Positions 31,542 through 39,526 of a stretch of DNA of 64,000 bases are shown here, piece after piece. How positions within the stretch are numbered: position 1 is the stretch's first letter; each line of letters opens with the position of its first letter. The stretch covers positions 1-64,000 of the forward strand of contig CAIPQN010000106.1 in the NCBI GenBank assembly GCA_903867225.1. Direction: 5' to 3'. The stretch is from an uncultured Pseudomonadota bacterium (GTDB lineage: Bacteria; Pseudomonadota; Gammaproteobacteria; Methylococcales; Methylomonadaceae). The notes under the pieces were generated by a model that saw only the letters and a list, made by a program, of their open reading frames with translations, did no database searches and was not told where the DNA came from. The position numbers and the translations under genes are program-made.

Positions 31542-32123
31542 ATGTTTCAAAAGTTATACGATAAAACACTCCGTTGGTCACGGCATCGACACGCTACTCG
31601 TTACTTAGGTTTTGTGAGTTTTGCAGATTCCTCATTTTTTCCGATTACACCACTCGTGATGCTTGTGCCAATGGTTTTAGCGCAACGTGATAAAGCCTTT
31701 CGCTTTGCATTTTTAACGACTTTAATGTCAGCGTTAGGCGCGATATTAGGCTATAGCATTGGTTATTTTCTATTTGAAATGATTTCGCCGTGGTTGCAAA
31801 CGACACATTATTGGAATGATTATTTGGCGGCAAAAATTGAAGTTGATAAATGGGGAATTTGGGCGGTGTTAATCGGGGGATTTTTACCCATTCCGTACAA
31901 GATTTTCACGATTACAGCGGGTTCATTAGATATGGCGTTATTGCCATTTCTTTTGGTATCAACATTAGGACGAGGCAGTCGATTTTTTCTCGTGGCATTT
32001 TTATTAAAATTTGGCGGAGCAAAATTTGAAACAAAATTACGAAATTACATCAACAAAATTGGCTGGTTTTGTGTGGTGTTAATTATCATTGGTTTGGGGA
32101 CATACCAATTTTTGAAGAATTGA
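31542..32123 (+). CDS. yqaA: YqaA family inner-membrane protein (SNARE-associated/VTT domain)
   Basis: A 193-residue membrane protein with about four hydrophobic segments. FADSSFFPITPLVML near residue 25 and GGFLPIPYKIFTITAG near residue 105 are the re-entrant loop motifs of the DedA/VTT superfamily, to which YqaA belongs. It is placed after pcm, 3 bases downstream, as in other gammaproteobacteria. Its function is not established; relatives are linked to lipid transport and membrane homeostasis. Confidence 0.85.
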   Translation: MFQKLYDKTLRWSRHRHATRYLGFVSFADSSFFPITPLVMLVPMVLAQRDKAFRFAFLTTLMSALGAILGYSIGYFLFEMISPWLQTTHYWNDYLAAKIEVDKWGIWAVLIGGFLPIPYKIFTITAGSLDMALLPFLLVSTLGRGSRFFLVAFLLKFGGAKFETKLRNYINKIGWFCVVLIIIGLGTYQFLKN

Positions 32124-32125
32124 AA

Positions 32126-32647
32126 ATGAATAAATTTAATTTACAACCAAACAATAAAGAACATTTGATGCGTGAAAACGATTTCATCGTTTCCAAAACC
32201 GATTTACGCGGTGTTATCACTTATGGAAATCCTATTTTTGTTGAATTTTCTGGCTATGATGAAAGTGAACTTTTAGGGGTGGCGCAAAATGTTATTCGCC
32301 ATCCCGATATGCCACGCGCTTTGTTTTCTCTCATTTGGTCAACCATCAGAGCGGGCAATGAATGTTTTGGCTACGTCAAAAATTTATCTAAAGACGGGAG
32401 TTTTTATTGGGTATTTATGCACATCACTCCTGAGTTTTCACCTGAAGGTATCAAAATCGGTTATTACTCTGTTCGGCGATGTCCTAAACGCAGTGCTATC
32501 GAAAAAATAGAACCCATTTATCAAAAAATGCTCGCGGCAGAAAAAGCAACAAATATAGAAAATGCCATTGATGCAGGTACGCAAGTGTTAACAGATATTC
32601 TTAATTCAACAGGACGTAACTATGAAGACTTTATTTTTTCACTCTAA
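32126..32647 (+). CDS. Single PAS-domain protein (Aer-like), input of the Sia-type operon
   Basis: A 173-residue soluble protein with one PAS domain at about 20-125. The sequence SKTDLRGVITYGNPIFVEFSGY and the following RHPDMPRALF and GYVKNLSKDGSFYWV are typical of the FAD-binding PAS of the aerotaxis receptor Aer, so redox or oxygen sensing is plausible. It lacks membrane and methyl-accepting domains. The C-terminal 45 residues are helical. ATG 32126 is 2 bases after yqaA; the open frame upstream lies inside yqaA. The 3' end overlaps the phosphatase gene by 26 bases, so the two are tightly coupled. Confidence 0.85.
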   Translation: MNKFNLQPNNKEHLMRENDFIVSKTDLRGVITYGNPIFVEFSGYDESELLGVAQNVIRHPDMPRALFSLIWSTIRAGNECFGYVKNLSKDGSFYWVFMHITPEFSPEGIKIGYYSVRRCPKRSAIEKIEPIYQKMLAAEKATNIENAIDAGTQVLTDILNSTGRNYEDFIFSL

Positions 32648-33893
32648 GTACGGTCGTTGGATTTACCTTTCTTTGCTACTAACCATCGGTGGTTTGCTGT
32701 TTTTTAATCCGCTATACGCCTTTATTCCACTGGGATTGAGCGTGATTTTGCTATTTATTCTCGACAAAAATCAAGCGGAAAGCATGGCTGAATTAACGAT
32801 TGTGTTAAAAGAAATGAAAACGGGGAGACTTTCATCTCGGTTGCCTTATATAAATTCTGATCCAGCCCAAGAAAAAATTCGTATCGCGCTCAATACCGCA
32901 TTGGATCAAACGGAAACCACCATCATTGAAATGTTAGGTGCAATGGATGCCGTCACAAAAGGTCATACTTGGCGACGATTGCAAATTCAAGGTGTAGATG
33001 GTTCGTTTAAAAAGGCGTTAGTAAAAATGCAAGTGATGCTTGATAACCTTGCAGAACGCACAGCAGATTCGGAAAAAATACATAACGAAATAGCAGAAAT
33101 TCACTGTCAAACCAGAGATTCCATTGAATATGCGTCCATTATTCAACGCACTATTTTGCCGAATTTGAGTGATTTTCAAAACGCATTTTCGGACAGTTTT
33201 GCCCATTGGAAACCCAAAGATATTGTAGGTGGCGATATTTGGTTTTTTGAACCACTGGCGAATGAAGGCGAATATCTTTTGTTTGTGATTGATTGTACAG
33301 GGCATGGTGTACCAGGGGCATTTGTTACCATGCTGGTTAAAAGTATTCAGCGAACCATTATGCTTGAGTGCAGAAACACGAAAAAAGAAATTCATCAGCA
33401 ATTTCCAAGTCAGATTCTTTCGATTTTTAATCGTGAAATTAAACACCTGCTTAACCAATATAAGCGAGAAAGTGAAAGTAACGTGGGCTTTGACGGTGGT
33501 ATTTTGTACATTAACAAAACTGAAGGCATTATTCGTTTTGCTGGCGCAGGAACGCCATTATTTTTGGTAGATTACGAAGGAAAATGCACCACAATTAAAA
33601 GCGATAGATGCAGCGTAGGCTATCGTTCTTCGGACGAAAATTTTATATTTACAGAGCAAGAATTTAAAATTGATTCATTCGACAAAATTTATCTTTCCAC
33701 AGACGGTTTATTTGATCAACTCGGTGGCAATAAAGATTTTCCTTACGGCAAAGCACGACTTATTTCAATTCTCGAAAAAAATAATCATCAATCCATGGAA
33801 CACATTAGAAGATTGATAATGAATGATGTTTCATACTGGCGAAGAAATGCAGAACAAAATGATGATATTACTTTTATCGGAATCAAAATCTAA
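32622..33893 (+). CDS. SiaA-like membrane-anchored SpoIIE/PP2C serine/threonine phosphatase
   Basis: A 423-residue protein. Two hydrophobic segments lie at about 13-30 and 32-47 with almost no loop, followed by a HAMP-like/helical region to about 180 and a SpoIIE-type PP2C domain to the end. Metal ligands are visible: GGDIWFF, DCTGHGVPGAF, STDGLFDQ and QNDDITFIGIK. In Pseudomonas SiaABCD, SiaA dephosphorylates the partner protein SiaC. The same order (phosphatase, kinase, partner) follows here. AGGA precedes the ATG, inside the PAS gene. Unlike SiaA of Pseudomonas, there is no large periplasmic sensor region, which fits a separate PAS input protein. Confidence 0.85.
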   Translation: MKTLFFHSKYGRWIYLSLLLTIGGLLFFNPLYAFIPLGLSVILLFILDKNQAESMAELTIVLKEMKTGRLSSRLPYINSDPAQEKIRIALNTALDQTETTIIEMLGAMDAVTKGHTWRRLQIQGVDGSFKKALVKMQVMLDNLAERTADSEKIHNEIAEIHCQTRDSIEYASIIQRTILPNLSDFQNAFSDSFAHWKPKDIVGGDIWFFEPLANEGEYLLFVIDCTGHGVPGAFVTMLVKSIQRTIMLECRNTKKEIHQQFPSQILSIFNREIKHLLNQYKRESESNVGFDGGILYINKTEGIIRFAGAGTPLFLVDYEGKCTTIKSDRCSVGYRSSDENFIFTEQEFKIDSFDKIYLSTDGLFDQLGGNKDFPYGKARLISILEKNNHQSMEHIRRLIMNDVSYWRRNAEQNDDITFIGIKI

Positions 33894-33912
33894 CGTTTAG
33901 AAAATTTTTATT

Positions 33913-34470
33913 ATGAATGTCACAAAAGAATTTGTTAAACAAAATGGGGTTTTATTTTTGTCGTACACGACTTTTTTATCTCAAGCCTTAATCGTAATAC
34001 TTACTAATTTGATAGAAGAAGAAACCAAAGTCAGTAAGGTTAGTATTGGCGATTCCAGTAATATCCTAACGATATTTATTGAACTCGCTCAAAACGTCTT
34101 GAACTATTCAAAAACAAACGAACTTGAATCAAATGAATGTAAATCCGAAGGCTTAATCACTGTTGGCAAATCTATAATTGACTCACAACAATTTTATTAC
34201 ATTGCCTGTCAAAATATAGTGGCATTAGCAGACAAAGAAAAAATGCAGCCAAAACTGGAAGAAATTTTAAAGTTAAATAAAAATGATTTAAAAAAGAGAT
34301 ATAGAGAACTTAGAAAAAGTGGTAAAAATACACATAACAACGGTGGTGGAATTGGCTTTTATGAAATTGCTAAACGAAGCGATAAAATCGAATTTGAGTT
34401 TAGTCAAATAAACGAAGATAAATTTTATTTTCAATTCACATCATTCGTGAACATTAAATCTACGGAATAA
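33913..34470 (+). CDS. SiaB-like kinase (DUF6272, GHKL fold)
   Basis: A 185-residue protein similar to SiaB-family kinases. An N-box-like segment (ELAQNVLNYSK near residue 58) and a Gly-rich G-box (NGGGIGFYEIAKRS near residue 143) define a GHKL/anti-sigma-type ATP site. In Pseudomonas, SiaB phosphorylates SiaC. Overall composition is Lys/Asn-rich and AT-rich, more than the flanking housekeeping genes. It is 19 bases after the phosphatase and 3 before the SiaC-like gene, in the same operon. Confidence 0.82.
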   Translation: MNVTKEFVKQNGVLFLSYTTFLSQALIVILTNLIEEETKVSKVSIGDSSNILTIFIELAQNVLNYSKTNELESNECKSEGLITVGKSIIDSQQFYYIACQNIVALADKEKMQPKLEEILKLNKNDLKKRYRELRKSGKNTHNNGGGIGFYEIAKRSDKIEFEFSQINEDKFYFQFTSFVNIKSTE

Positions 34471-34473
34471 AGC

Positions 34474-34887
34474 ATGGAAAATCTAAATATCGAAGCTACA
34501 AAATACACGCCAGAAATTATTTTGCATAAATCAGGAAAATTCAGCATCAAAGGTAAATCTTATCCTGAGAATACGTTTGAGTTTTATGCTCCTGTGACGG
34601 CTTGGTTTAAGCTCTATTTTTTGATTGATTCGTTGCCAAAAGTACATTTTGTAACAGATGAAATGCCAAAGGCATTAACATTAGATATGGAAATTATTTA
34701 TTTTAATTCAAGTAGTTCCAAATGGTTTTTTGATCTTTTTGATATTTTTGATGAACACAAAGAAAGTTTTGATATTTCGATTAATTGGCTATACGACGAA
34801 GATAACGAAAGTGCGCGTGAAGCGGGTGAAGATTTCATAGAGGATTTTGAAAATCTCAATATCAAACTCGTGCCAAAACAGGGTTAA
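34474..34887 (+). CDS. SiaC-like partner-switch protein (DUF1987)
   Basis: A 137-residue DUF1987 protein recognised by the start LNIEATKYTPEI, the GKSYPENTFEFYAPV block, the central YFNSSSSKWFFDLFD and the acidic INWLYDEDNESAREAGEDF. In Pseudomonas, SiaC is the switch: unphosphorylated SiaC binds and activates the diguanylate cyclase SiaD. The Ser-rich YFNSSSSK segment is where phosphorylation would be expected. It sits directly before the HD-GYP gene, in the position occupied by siaD elsewhere. Confidence 0.88.
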   Translation: MENLNIEATKYTPEIILHKSGKFSIKGKSYPENTFEFYAPVTAWFKLYFLIDSLPKVHFVTDEMPKALTLDMEIIYFNSSSSKWFFDLFDIFDEHKESFDISINWLYDEDNESAREAGEDFIEDFENLNIKLVPKQG

Positions 34888-34895
34888 ATTGAAAT

Positions 34896-36248
34896 ATGAA
34901 AACCGATCTAAATCCCATGATTGTTGAACTCGAAAATCTTAAAAATGAATTCTCAAAAACGACTGATAAGCTAATTAAAAATATCTATCGCCAAGATAAA
35001 ATCATGCTTAGAAGCGATAAACGACAACAATATGAATATGACCATTTACAAGACCGATTAGCAGAAGTAGAAAAACTTGAATTAGCGCAAGAAGAATTGA
35101 TGGATTCTTTCATTGTGCTTATCGCAGGTGCGATTGATGCCAAATCAAAATATACAGGTGGGCATTGTGAGCGAGTTCCAGAATTAGCGATGATGTTAGC
35201 GCAAGCCGCAACGGATTGTAACGAAGGTATTTTTGCCAATTTTGAACTCAAAACAGACGACCAAATAAGAGAACTTAAAATTGCCTCTTGGTTGCATGAT
35301 TGTGGAAAAGTCACAACGCCTGAATATGTGGTTGATAAGGCGACAAAATTGGAAACAATTTACAATCGAATCCACGAAATTCGTACACGATTTGAAGTAA
35401 TTTATCGCGATTTTCAAATTAAAGCGTTGGAAAGAAAACTTCAAGGTGAAAATGCGGCTGATGTTGAAAGCTGGTTAAATATCGAATTACAAAAACTTCA
35501 AGATGATTTTCAAATAATTGCAAAAGCTAATTTGGGCGCGGAGTTTATGCAAAAAGAAGATCAGGAAAAAATTAAAATCATCGCGCAACGTGAATGGATT
35601 CGACATTTTGATTGTTCAATCGGTCTGGCATTTGAAGAACGTCAGCGTGTAAAAAAAGATAATGCTCAAACGCCCAGTGTTGAATATCTGCTTTCAGATA
35701 AAAAAAGTCATATTCAACCCAGAGAAGATTTTGATTATGAAGATTATGAAGCGCGGGGCTTTAAAATGCCTGTTCCTGAACATCTCTATAACTTCGGCGA
35801 AGTTTATAATTTAACGCAAAGTAGAGGCACGTTGACTCCAGAAGAACGCTTCAAGATTAACGAACACATCACCATGACGATTAAAATGCTTGAAACATTA
35901 CCGTTTCCAAGCAATTTAAAAAATGTTCCAATTTATGCAGGAATGCACCACGAAACATTGATTGGAACGGGTTATCCTCGAAAATTGACGATTGATGATA
36001 TGCCGATTCCAGCGCGAATTATGGCGATTGCCGATATATTTGAAGCATTAACTGCACCCGACAGACCATATAAAGAACCAAAAACATTATCCGATTCAAT
36101 CAAAATTCTAAATTCGATGGTTGAAAAGCAACATATTGACGGTGACATATTCCGTTTATTTTTATCGAGTGGTATTTATAAAAAATACTCGGATAAATTT
36201 TTAAAACCCGAACAAAACGATGATGTTAATGTCACCAAATACATATAA
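34896..36248 (+). CDS. HD-GYP domain protein (probable c-di-GMP phosphodiesterase) with N-terminal coiled coil
   Basis: A 450-residue protein. Residues 1-70 form a charged coiled coil (NIYRQDKIMLRSDKRQQYEY). The HD-GYP catalytic core starts near residue 68: His90 in GGHCERV, His134-Asp135 in WLHDCGK, then about 190 residues of extra mainly helical sequence, HHETLIGTGYP (about 350-361) and RIMAIADIFEALTAPDRPY. HD-GYP enzymes hydrolyse c-di-GMP to pGpG or GMP. There is no receiver domain, so control probably comes through the coiled coil. It is the last gene of the PAS-SiaABC-like operon and is followed by a terminator. An activity other than c-di-GMP hydrolysis cannot be excluded because of the insertion. 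Confidence 0.88.
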   Translation: MKTDLNPMIVELENLKNEFSKTTDKLIKNIYRQDKIMLRSDKRQQYEYDHLQDRLAEVEKLELAQEELMDSFIVLIAGAIDAKSKYTGGHCERVPELAMMLAQAATDCNEGIFANFELKTDDQIRELKIASWLHDCGKVTTPEYVVDKATKLETIYNRIHEIRTRFEVIYRDFQIKALERKLQGENAADVESWLNIELQKLQDDFQIIAKANLGAEFMQKEDQEKIKIIAQREWIRHFDCSIGLAFEERQRVKKDNAQTPSVEYLLSDKKSHIQPREDFDYEDYEARGFKMPVPEHLYNFGEVYNLTQSRGTLTPEERFKINEHITMTIKMLETLPFPSNLKNVPIYAGMHHETLIGTGYPRKLTIDDMPIPARIMAIADIFEALTAPDRPYKEPKTLSDSIKILNSMVEKQHIDGDIFRLFLSSGIYKKYSDKFLKPEQNDDVNVTKYI

Positions 36249-36276
36249 AAACAGGCAGAAAATCTGCCTGTTTCTG
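36249..36276 (+). terminator. Intrinsic terminator after the HD-GYP gene (shared with the converging GGDEF-EAL gene)
   Basis: An 11-bp stem AAACAGGCAGA / TCTGCCTGTTT (36249-36259 with 36263-36273) with a 3-base loop and a T-run after it. It starts right at the stop codon region and lies between two convergent genes. Confidence 0.88.
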
Positions 36277-36283
36277 TCTAAAT

Positions 36284-39200
36284 TCATTTCATTTTAATTA
36301 GTAAATTCACAAATTCATCTGCTGGAATTGGCTTACTTTTGATGAAACCCTGATAAATATCGCAGCCTTTCAATTTCAAGAAATTCAACTGTTCAACCGT
36401 TTCAACCCCTTCCGCCAAGATTTTAAAGCCTAGCGTTTGACCCATTGAAATAATCGCTGACGTAATCGCCATATCATCTAAGTGGTGCGGAATATCATCA
36501 ATGAAACTTTTATCAATCTTCAACACATCTAACGGAAAACGTTTTAAATAAGACAACGACGAATAGCCTGTGCCGAAATCATCAATGGCTAAATGAATTC
36601 CTAAATCACGCAATTTCGTTAGAATTCCAATAACCACTTCTTGATGTTCCATCAAGCCGCTTTCGGTTAATTCGAGTTCTAACCATTCGGCTGGATAATT
36701 CGTTTCAGCCAAAACAGTGGTGACTAATTCCACCATGTCACAATGTTTAAATTGTGATGGTGATACGTTCACAGCCAAGCGAATTGGGGCAAATCCTGCG
36801 TCAATCCATTCTTTTCCTTGCCGACAAACATCACGCAACACCCATTCTCCGATGCTAATAATTAAGCCTGTTTCTTCAGCAATCGGAATAAATTTATAAG
36901 GCGCAATCAACCCTTCATTCGGTTCTTGCCAACGTACTAAAGCTTCTGCACCAATAATTTTGCCGCTTAAAATATCGACTTGCGCTTGATAATAAACACG
37001 CAATTCACCTTGCTCAATACCGCGTCGCAAACGCGCTTCTAAACTTAATCGTTCGCGTGCTGCCAGCGTTAAACTTTCTGAAAAATAAGCAAAACAACCG
37101 CGCCCATTATCTTTCGCCTGATAAAGTGCAATATCTGCATTATCCATTAACAATTCAGGTGTTCCACCGTGTTGCGGATAAAGCGCAATACCAATACTTG
37201 CACCAATTCGCACGTCATCACTTTGCGTTAATTGAAAGGCTACCGATAAAGCTGCCACAATTTCTGTTGCTACTCTTGCCGCATCGTCTTGATGACTAAT
37301 ATCTTCAAGTAACACTACAAATTCATCGCCACCTAATCGCGCCACCATGTCTGTGTTGCGTAATCGCAAATTAATTCGTTCAGCCACTTGTTTAAGTAAT
37401 TCGTCACCCGCTAAATGCCCTAATGTATCGTTCACATTTTTGAAGCGATCTAAATCCATCATCAGTACCGCGAGTTGCTTTTTTTCACGGAAACACATCG
37501 CAATACTATGATTTAAAGATTCTTCCAATTTACGTCGATTTGCTAACCCAGTCAGTGGATCATAAAACGCTAAACTTTTAATTTTTTCTTCCGCGATTTT
37601 AAATTCCGTAATGTCCACTATCGACGCAACAAAATGTGTCGTTACGTTTTTATCATCTTTAACGGCGGTAATCGTCAGCCATTCGGGATGAATTTCACCA
37701 TTCTTATTACGATCCCAAATTTCACCTTGCCATGAACCGATGCTTTGCAATTTCCCCCACATTTCTTTGTAAAATTCAGCACCGTGACGATTCGATTTTA
37801 AAAAGCTTGGCTTTTTGCCAATCGCTTCTTCTGCGCTGTAACCCGTGATGGTAGTAAACGAATTATTAACACGAATAATCACCGTATTTGCATCAGTAAT
37901 AATAATGCCTTCTTGTGATTCAAACGCAATCGCGGCGATTCGTTGTTCAACTTCAAGTAATTTACGTTTCGTAATGTTTCGCGCAATACCCAAAACGCCA
38001 ACAATGTTGCCATCAATATCATGTAATGGTGTTTTTATAGTTTCTACAACGGCTTGATGTCCATCATCGGCAAACGTAATGCTTTCTTCGGTTACAAAAA
38101 CTTTATTCGTCGCCATGATTTTTTGATCGTATTTCCAGTACGCATCAGCTAATTCTTTACTAACAAAATCGTAATCGGTTTTTCCTATTAAATCAGCTTC
38201 TTTTTCGCCAATATAACGTTCAAATGTTGGATTACAGGACAAATAAACACCGTCTTTGTCTTTGAGCCAAATTAAATCAGGAATGGCTTTAACAAGAGAA
38301 CGTAAATGTGCTTCGTTTGCGTTGTGAATTGCCAATAATTTTTGAAAACTCAATGCCATTGCATTGAAGTTTTCAGCAACTAATGCCAATTCATCCTCAG
38401 TTTCCAAAGTGATTCGAGAAGATAAATTGCCATCGGCAAATTTCTGTGCGGAATTCGCCAAAGAACGGATATTTCCCATCATGGCGTAATAAATTCCAAT
38501 GAAGAAATACTGCGCGATAATGAAAAGTAAAAATGCGCTGCCAATACTTTTTAAAAGTGATTTTTTAGCGTGCTGAATGCGATTTCCAAGTAAGGATTCT
38601 AATGCAGGTAATAAAACATCATTACTTTGTGCATAAATTTTATCGGTAGCACGAACATGCAACACAAAAAAATCGGTAGGTGAAAGTTTAAAGCGTTCCG
38701 ATAAAATATCGGCATTGACGGCATTGGTGATTTGCAAAACATTTCGCAAAATTTCTTTTGTGGAACTAATCATCACCGATTGCATATCGAGATTTGCCCG
38801 CCCTGTTTTTTCAAGGCTTAAATCAACCATTGATAGGCTTTCATTTAGTTCGGCAATTAACACGATGATGTCATTCTTTTGATGCTCGGATAATTGTTTG
38901 TTGGTTAACGTCGAAGCACTAAGCGCGTGTAATTGCCCCAATTTTTCTAACACATCAGGTACTTTGTTAATTATGGTATCCGTTAAATAATGTGTATCCG
39001 TTCCCGCATCAAACGTTAGCGCGTAATAATCCGCAACCGTTTCTTTGAATTGCTGAAATTGATTCAAGATTTCAACATGAGCCGCTAGATTTTGTTCATC
39101 TGTCCACGCGTCGCTTTTGATTTTTACACCATGCCAATTTGTTTTAATGGCACGCCAGTCTCTATTTAATCGCGTGTCATCGGGTTTAAGCAACGTGTCA

Positions 39201-39526
39201 TAAGGCAAACCATTGTCGACAAGCGTCATTTTTTCAGTCAATTTACTTTCAGCATTTTCTTGTTGATTACGTCGAAACGAATCGTGTGGCAAAGTAGTTA
39301 CATTTTGATATTGCTGAATAGTTTGCATCGTTTGTGACAATGGCTTAATCAGTTTAATACCTTGTAATTCACGATCAGTGGAATAAATGACTTGCGAAAA
39401 ATTGCTGTACAAACTGAAAAACATCACAACGATGGCAATAAGATAAATTAATCCCAACACCATAAATTTTTTGGTGTAGCCCAGTTTATTCATCAAAGCA
39501 ATAGCGGGTAAAAACAAGCCTCTCAT
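36284..39526 (-). CDS. Membrane sensor protein HAMP-PAS-PAS-GGDEF-EAL
   Basis: A 1080-residue c-di-GMP enzyme. One membrane segment near 20-42, a helical periplasmic region to about 330, a second membrane segment about 333-352, a HAMP domain, two PAS domains (about 405-530 and 535-655), GGDEF (intact motif RLGGDEFVVLLED near 727) and EAL (intact GAEALVRW near 858, plus DDFGTGYSSLSYL and AEGVETVEQL). Both catalytic motifs are preserved, so synthase and phosphodiesterase activities are both possible. It converges on the HD-GYP gene across a shared terminator. Its ligand is unknown. Confidence 0.92.
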   Translation of the reverse strand: MRGLFLPAIALMNKLGYTKKFMVLGLIYLIAIVVMFFSLYSNFSQVIYSTDRELQGIKLIKPLSQTMQTIQQYQNVTTLPHDSFRRNQQENAESKLTEKMTLVDNGLPYDTLLKPDDTRLNRDWRAIKTNWHGVKIKSDAWTDEQNLAAHVEILNQFQQFKETVADYYALTFDAGTDTHYLTDTIINKVPDVLEKLGQLHALSASTLTNKQLSEHQKNDIIVLIAELNESLSMVDLSLEKTGRANLDMQSVMISSTKEILRNVLQITNAVNADILSERFKLSPTDFFVLHVRATDKIYAQSNDVLLPALESLLGNRIQHAKKSLLKSIGSAFLLFIIAQYFFIGIYYAMMGNIRSLANSAQKFADGNLSSRITLETEDELALVAENFNAMALSFQKLLAIHNANEAHLRSLVKAIPDLIWLKDKDGVYLSCNPTFERYIGEKEADLIGKTDYDFVSKELADAYWKYDQKIMATNKVFVTEESITFADDGHQAVVETIKTPLHDIDGNIVGVLGIARNITKRKLLEVEQRIAAIAFESQEGIIITDANTVIIRVNNSFTTITGYSAEEAIGKKPSFLKSNRHGAEFYKEMWGKLQSIGSWQGEIWDRNKNGEIHPEWLTITAVKDDKNVTTHFVASIVDITEFKIAEEKIKSLAFYDPLTGLANRRKLEESLNHSIAMCFREKKQLAVLMMDLDRFKNVNDTLGHLAGDELLKQVAERINLRLRNTDMVARLGGDEFVVLLEDISHQDDAARVATEIVAALSVAFQLTQSDDVRIGASIGIALYPQHGGTPELLMDNADIALYQAKDNGRGCFAYFSESLTLAARERLSLEARLRRGIEQGELRVYYQAQVDILSGKIIGAEALVRWQEPNEGLIAPYKFIPIAEETGLIISIGEWVLRDVCRQGKEWIDAGFAPIRLAVNVSPSQFKHCDMVELVTTVLAETNYPAEWLELELTESGLMEHQEVVIGILTKLRDLGIHLAIDDFGTGYSSLSYLKRFPLDVLKIDKSFIDDIPHHLDDMAITSAIISMGQTLGFKILAEGVETVEQLNFLKLKGCDIYQGFIKSKPIPADEFVNLLIKMK

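Follow-up and report, generated by a model that had tools for sequence, protein, structure and literature searches.

A Sia-type partner-switch operon with an HD-GYP protein as its probable effector in an uncultured Methylomonadaceae bacterium

The analysis concerns a stretch of 64,000 nucleotides (hereafter the window; positions 1 to 64,000 of contig CAIPQN010000106.1, GenBank assembly GCA_903867225.1) from an uncultured bacterium of the Methylomonadaceae, and in particular five genes encoding a PAS protein, a SiaA-like phosphatase, a SiaB-family kinase, a SiaC/DUF1987 adaptor and an HD-GYP protein. A first-pass annotation of this DNA had described these genes as one tight operon. This description is borne out: all five lie on the + strand within 32126-36248, the PAS and siaA genes overlap by 26 bp, and the following gaps measure 19, 3 and 8 bp. 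The relevant features are listed below.

32126..32647, + strand: Aer/CetB-type flavin adenine dinucleotide (FAD) PAS protein, 173 residues, the proposed input (PF08447/PF00989)
32622..33893, + strand: SiaA-like membrane PP2C phosphatase, 423 residues (PF07228, 2.3e-23)
33913..34470, + strand: SiaB-family serine/threonine switch kinase, 185 residues (DUF6272; PF19788, 2e-28)
34474..34887, + strand: SiaC/DUF1987 phospho-switch adaptor, 137 residues (PF09345, 2.3e-32)
34708..34710, + strand: codon of SiaC Ser79, a predicted phosphosite aligning with phospho-Thr68 of Pseudomonas aeruginosa SiaC
34896..36248, + strand: HD-GYP phosphodiesterase, 450 residues, the proposed output (PF13487, 6.5e-45)
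34914..35144, + strand: stalk of the HD-GYP protein, residues 7-83, predicted as a single unbroken helix running into the HD domain (AlphaFold2, pLDDT 62-84)
34989..35042, + strand: putative SiaC-docking motif RQDKIMLRSDKRQQYEYD, HD-GYP residues 32-49, in register with SiaD R74-D91 of 7E6G
36247..36275, strand not assigned: hairpin terminator that ends the operon and could serve from either side

The entire five-gene set recurs in another species of the same genus (L030/L200), where the HD-GYP protein is 92% identical; this second genome appears to be the Kiruna metagenome-assembled genome (MAG) bin-05821, and no SiaC was found in the remaining members of the genus that were searched. Since the set has been kept in a second species, it is neither a product of chance nor an assembly artefact. 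A chance neighbourhood was likewise rejected on the ground that the core of the operon is conserved in four lineages.

The kinase passes the SiaB-family subfamily model NF038262 (112.6 bits for a cut-off of 85), and its N-box (E57/N61) and G-box (G144/G146/G148) are invariant in the SiaB alignment (A2). The adaptor passes PF09345 (111.6 bits, cut-off 24.5), matches the SiaC structure 6kko (E=1.1e-15) and is the only SiaC of the whole host genome. Its predicted phosphosite is located in a switch segment reading YFN-S-SS in the window and YLN-T-SS in P. aeruginosa, Ser being found at this position in most of the sampled SiaC proteins. An insertion of about 10-12 residues, restricted to the genus and absent from L201, L202 and L269, occupies SiaC residues about 50-64 (34621-34665 in the window). 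The SiaA-like protein consists of a transmembrane hairpin at about residues 14-46 (as read from the sequence), a helical linker and a SpoIIE/PP2C domain (residues 215-422), and its catalytic part is matched by 6k4e, the PP2C structure of SiaA (E=1.2e-33).

The HD-GYP protein displays the complete core motif set of its family (HD, the downstream HHExxxGxGYP and the metal-ligand His/Asp), and residues H134, D135, K138, H324, H351, H352, E353, G359, Y360, P361 and D380 are invariant across 36 relatives (alignment A6). The best Foldseek matches of its model are the HD-GYP structures 4r8z, 9rbz and 4mcw. In the subclass to which the protein belongs, about 130 inserted residues separate the HD half from the GYP half, and the other members are larger sensor proteins. 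Similarity between these relatives and the window protein mostly begins only at residue 45-66, and the sensor half has therefore been replaced in the window protein by a 60-residue N-terminus. Compared with sensor HD-GYPs of the same large-insert subclass (L084, L203 and others, 50-65% identical), it carries a putative SiaC-docking helix instead of an N-terminal sensor. The predicted stalk is laid out like that of SiaD in its crystal structure with SiaC (PMC8457831).

In Pseudomonas, SiaC activates the diguanylate cyclase SiaD through binding to this stalk, the SiaD residues in contact with SiaC being R74, K77, V78, S82, D83, R84, Q86 and D91 (PMC8457831). In an alignment anchored on the S-D pair, the contacts of 7E6G correspond to R32, K35, I36, S40, D41, K42, Q44 and D49 of the window protein, and most of these positions are the same or similar. 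The N-terminus of the window protein also matches those of hybrid histidine kinases at L163, L177 and L199 (blastp 2e-9, 7e-7 and 2e-6); these kinases come from another proteobacterial family, are located at SiaC loci and possess neither an HD-GYP domain nor any catalytic domain shared with the window protein. The contact register and the homology to SiaC-linked histidine kinases both support, at the level of sequence, the suggestion of the first-pass annotation that the N-terminal coil would be the SiaC-docking part. A broader comparison was obtained with a position-specific scoring matrix (PSSM) of 26 columns, trained solely on SiaD-type GGDEF proteins adjoining SiaC in the survey genomes. 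This matrix recovered the motif near the N-terminus in 23/23 GAF-HD-GYPs at SiaC loci, with scores of 24.7-35.4 bits (for instance YEKLFKGTQKLMRMSDRSEEKVKQAN). HD-GYPs unlinked to SiaC reached at most 10.0 (9 proteins) and 13.7 (67 loci), and the remaining open reading frames scoring above 17 were all situated at SiaC loci, the next best score being 14.6. It follows from the 23/23 result that SiaC-linked HD-GYPs share the docking motif of SiaD.

The association of the helix with SiaC was evaluated in two samples. The first comprised 71 genome loci gathered with two HD-GYP patterns, one of which lies within the helix, so that it was partly selected for the helix and not for SiaC. The siaB-siaC pair was found directly upstream in 4/4 loci with a helix-bearing HD-GYP, and SiaC was present in the examined stretch of 0/67 others (Fisher 1e-6). 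These four loci belong to Kiruna, Rhodoferax, Mariprofundaceae and Sulfurimonas MAGs, the Sulfurimonas locus (L269) carrying the same helix on a different, short HD-GYP domain. In the second sample, consisting of 398 genomes of the phylum, a SiaD-type helix profile matched 54 genomes, of which 53 encode SiaC; SiaC was present in 14 of the 344 helix-less genomes and in 67 of the 398 overall (Fisher 1.3e-51 for the tie between helix and SiaC). Some helices of the phylum genomes are located on contigs apart from that of SiaC (e.g. G485:C98, G548:C74, G501:C5), suggesting additional, unlinked SiaC targets.

Within the host genome, the window-type profile (A4) returned only the HD-GYP protein described here plus two weak, stop-containing matches, and the SiaD-type profile (A5) returned no credible match, the best being a 46-residue frame at E=0.13. 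No GGDEF protein of this genome was picked up by either helix profile. An unlinked SiaD homologue, named by the first-pass annotation as a possible true partner of SiaC, was rejected, as neither profile revealed another plausible docking helix in the host genome. The survey of DUF6272-DUF1987-HD-GYP clusters that had been suggested gave a positive outcome, siaB-siaC-HD-GYP operons recurring in several classes and two phyla. With recurrent operons, a helix that is nearly exclusive to genomes with SiaC and no other helix protein in the host, the view that a Sia-type switch would drive an HD-GYP enzyme is strongly supported by sequence comparison.

The operon is thus considered, with fair confidence, to encode a Sia-type partner switch that has an HD-GYP phosphodiesterase as its effector, this enzyme acting on cyclic di-GMP (c-di-GMP) and being activated by unphosphorylated SiaC. 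The proposed mechanism can be summarized as follows. The Aer/CetB-type FAD-PAS protein would sense the redox or oxygen state and act on the SiaA-like membrane phosphatase. SiaB would put a phosphate on Ser79 of SiaC, and the SiaA-like phosphatase would take it off. Unphosphorylated SiaC would then dock on the N-terminal stalk of the HD-GYP protein by means of the SiaD-like motif and keep this stalk as a parallel dimer. Docking would most likely turn c-di-GMP hydrolysis on, as it does c-di-GMP synthesis for the SiaD cyclase in Pseudomonas.

A number of observations weigh against this scheme. The window helix scores only 2.5 with the SiaD-only PSSM, its register being exact but not significant alone, and its profile-profile match to SiaD stalks is modest (P=2.4e-4). 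Some contact positions of SiaC are strongly changed, R103 being replaced by Ser and L107 by Ala in the 6kko alignment. On the input side, related operons from beyond the genus lack the PAS gene, and a Pfam search for a HAMP domain in the SiaA-like protein gave no match up to E=10. The first two values indicate that the window helix represents a divergent class. The divergent RQDKIMLRSDKRQQYEYD version is common to the HD-GYPs of Rhodoferax, Mariprofundaceae and Sulfurimonas and to the hybrid kinases, all at loci with siaC, and judging from the sequences the window would exemplify a second docking class, in which Lys28 of SiaC is paired with a helix of the form RQDKIMxRSDKRQxxEYD. A contact pair differs jointly between the classes: SiaC proteins with Asp/Glu at position 29 often face Lys/Arg at helix position 90, and those with Lys at position 29 face Tyr/Phe. 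As the second class forms a single clade, this covariation is confounded by phylogeny.

The two points on the input side also favor a competing explanation, in which the Aer-like PAS protein acts elsewhere, for instance on a chemoreceptor, and SiaA reads a membrane signal of its own, a HAMP domain being the contact point that such a PAS protein would be expected to use. This alternative is possible and deserves to be kept in mind, but the 26-bp overlap of the PAS and siaA genes, the persistence of the pair in the second species and the side-by-side arrangement of a PAS protein and a membrane-hairpin receptor, as in CetB/CetA (PMC2628428), speak against it. The closest PDB match of the PAS protein is the E. 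coli Aer PAS domain (8dik, E=9.2e-26), and among the FAD-contact residues of Aer, N85, R57 and W70 are retained and H53 is replaced by Gln. A search of E. coli genomes with the DNA of the PAS gene gave no match. The initial description of an Aer-like PAS protein serving as redox input consequently holds for the type of PAS domain; its control over SiaA is suggested by comparison with the CetA/CetB receptor, which consists of two proteins. Operons of this kind from beyond the genus possess other inputs, namely GAF in Rhodoferax and NIT, SBP and PAS in Sulfurimonas. The redox part of the scheme is therefore lineage-specific and the least certain, and a redox input is plausible for this lineage. 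The arrangement is reminiscent of CetA/CetB of Campylobacter jejuni and of E. coli Aer (PMC2628428, PMC9668731), where an FAD-type PAS domain is found beside a membrane-hairpin signalling protein. It differs from these systems in that a PP2C phosphatase would take the place of the chemoreceptor as output, and in that HAMP was not detected.

The same wiring could also operate with the reverse sign, unphosphorylated SiaC blocking the HD-GYP dimer by sitting on the stalk and phosphorylation of SiaC freeing the phosphodiesterase. The docking evidence gives a place of binding for SiaC and not its effect, and the dimer geometry of GGDEF proteins is not obligatory for HD-GYP dimers. This reading is nevertheless unlikely, since SiaD, the sole case in which the effect has been measured, is activated by stalk binding (PMC8457831), and since the predicted stalk continues straight into the HD domain, in a manner that fits stabilization of a dimer. 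Even less probable is an effector that is not a c-di-GMP phosphodiesterase, being instead a hydrolase of 3'3'-cyclic GMP-AMP (3'3'-cGAMP) or a non-catalytic HD-GYP protein working through protein contacts. The top PDB sequence match is indeed the 3'3'-cGAMP phosphodiesterase V-cGAP3 (E=1.4e-14), and no characterized member was found for the subclass with the insert of about 130 residues. Against this stand the invariance of every core HD-GYP motif in the 36 relatives, the fact that the best fold matches 4mcw, 4r8z and 9rbz are c-di-GMP HD-GYPs, and the observation that c-di-GMP synthesis is elsewhere the most frequent association of SiaC homologues. Finally, that the true partner of SiaC would be an unlinked diguanylate cyclase or the neighboring GGDEF-EAL protein (36284-39526), with the HD-GYP protein as a mere neighbor, is very improbable: the host genome contains 14 GGDEF matches and the known partner of SiaC is a GGDEF protein, but no other host protein bears a plausible helix with either docking profile and helix-bearing HD-GYPs adjoin siaC in four distant lineages.

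The proposed switch shares with SiaABCD of P. aeruginosa (PMC8457831, PMC7647112) a SiaA-type PP2C phosphatase, a SiaB-type kinase and SiaC in the same order, as well as an adjoining effector with a helical stalk and a putative SiaC-docking motif. It differs in its effector, an HD-GYP protein that would degrade c-di-GMP rather than a GGDEF protein that makes it, in its divergent docking motif, in the use of Ser instead of Thr at the predicted phosphosite and in the presence of a separate Aer-type PAS protein. In addition, the window proteins remain below the NCBI equivalog cut-offs for SiaA (184 of 700 bits, 5e-54, with a different N-terminus), SiaB (63.6 of 225 bits) and SiaC (87.9 of 150 bits). 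Control of a c-di-GMP enzyme through phosphorylation-dependent partner binding is also the principle of the HptB-HsbR-HsbA-HsbD and BgrSTUWV systems (discussed in PMC8457831), which, unlike the window, employ a STAS partner instead of DUF1987 and target a diguanylate cyclase. In a survey of Campylobacterota, clusters of PP2C, STAS-kinase and STAS genes were proposed, from gene neighbourhood, to control a 'c-di-GMP turnover enzyme' (PMC9239204); in the parts of that article consulted, these clusters differ from the window in that no HD-GYP target of SiaC/DUF1987 and no docking helix are named.

Several features of the surroundings complete the description of the locus. A VTT/DedA-like gene precedes the PAS gene and its stop lies at 32123, 3 bp upstream, so that the transcript may begin further 5'. 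Directly behind the operon, a convergent gene on the - strand (36284-39526) encodes a HAMP-PAS-PAS-GGDEF-EAL protein, a second c-di-GMP enzyme in which no docking helix was detected. The GC content falls to 0.31 over siaB-siaC, with values of about 0.36-0.44 around the operon; together with the patchy distribution of the system, this hints at horizontal transfer. The host genome (2.64 Mb in 110 contigs) encodes a pMMO/AMO-family gene, and the host is therefore probably a methanotroph.

The range of enzymes found behind the helix was assessed in 98 SiaC loci of uneven tree sampling, which were collected by means of SiaC only and include the window, two loci found through HD-GYP being left out. 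The nearest docking-helix protein was a GGDEF protein in 33 of these loci, an HD-GYP protein in 26, a class III nucleotide cyclase in 9, a histidine kinase in 8, and a HATPase/CheX protein and a PP2C protein in 1 each; a helix protein was absent within 5 kb in the other 20. The class III adenylate/guanylate cyclases with a docking helix adjoin siaC at L148, L146, L168, L158, L179, L183, L151, L185 and L187 and possibly constitute a SiaC-controlled branch of cyclic AMP or cyclic GMP signalling. Histidine kinases, several of them hybrid, have the helix as their N-terminus at L123, L125, L137, L172, L163, L177, L199 and L079, where the partner switch could possibly feed two-component signalling. 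The PP2C phosphatase and the HATPase/CheX-like protein with a helix beside SiaC are located at L078:4991-6001 and L073:3848-6007, respectively. Genomes of the same family or order (L026, L028 and L031) encode SiaABC, in which SiaA is short; docking-helix proteins are absent within 5 kb of these loci, and the SiaC targets presumably lie elsewhere.

The idea of a system unique to this genome was rejected, as the SiaC-HD-GYP arrangement is widespread. In the SiaC tree, the window falls in a supported clade of nine members (5 with HD-GYP, 3 with a hybrid kinase and 1 unknown), which spans Gamma-, Beta- and Zetaproteobacteria and Campylobacterota and is separate from the SiaCs encoded at GAF-HD-GYP loci, many forks of this tree being unresolved. 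In the HD-GYP tree, the SiaC-linked proteins form separate groups and the starred branches force at least 2 changes; SiaC therefore probably gained HD-GYPs as partners on more than one occasion. Since class III cyclases bear the helix too, as do histidine kinases, SiaC has the appearance of a general adaptor. SiaC/DUF1987 is probably a general phospho-switched adaptor with a portable N-terminal helix as the label of its targets; the proposed targets are diguanylate cyclases, HD-GYP phosphodiesterases of two kinds, class III nucleotide cyclases and histidine kinases, hybrid ones included.

To our knowledge, SiaC is known solely as the activator of one diguanylate cyclase. A literature search, covering few subscription papers, found DUF1987 only in the article on the SiaD structure (PMC8457831), where DUF1987 proteins are suggested to modulate adjacent proteins, and no report of SiaC with an HD-GYP protein or of a shared docking helix. 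If the interpretation presented here is true, one switch would commonly govern c-di-GMP production as well as its degradation, along with other signalling enzymes, through a short helix recognizable in sequence. A function would thereby be provided for many DUF1987/DUF6272 genes, and the targets of SiaC would become predictable genome by genome. Should the general-adaptor reading hold, swapping the enzyme behind the helix would let one input make, break or replace second-messenger signals. For the bacterium itself, a probable methanotroph, redox or oxygen state would be tied to the breakdown of c-di-GMP.

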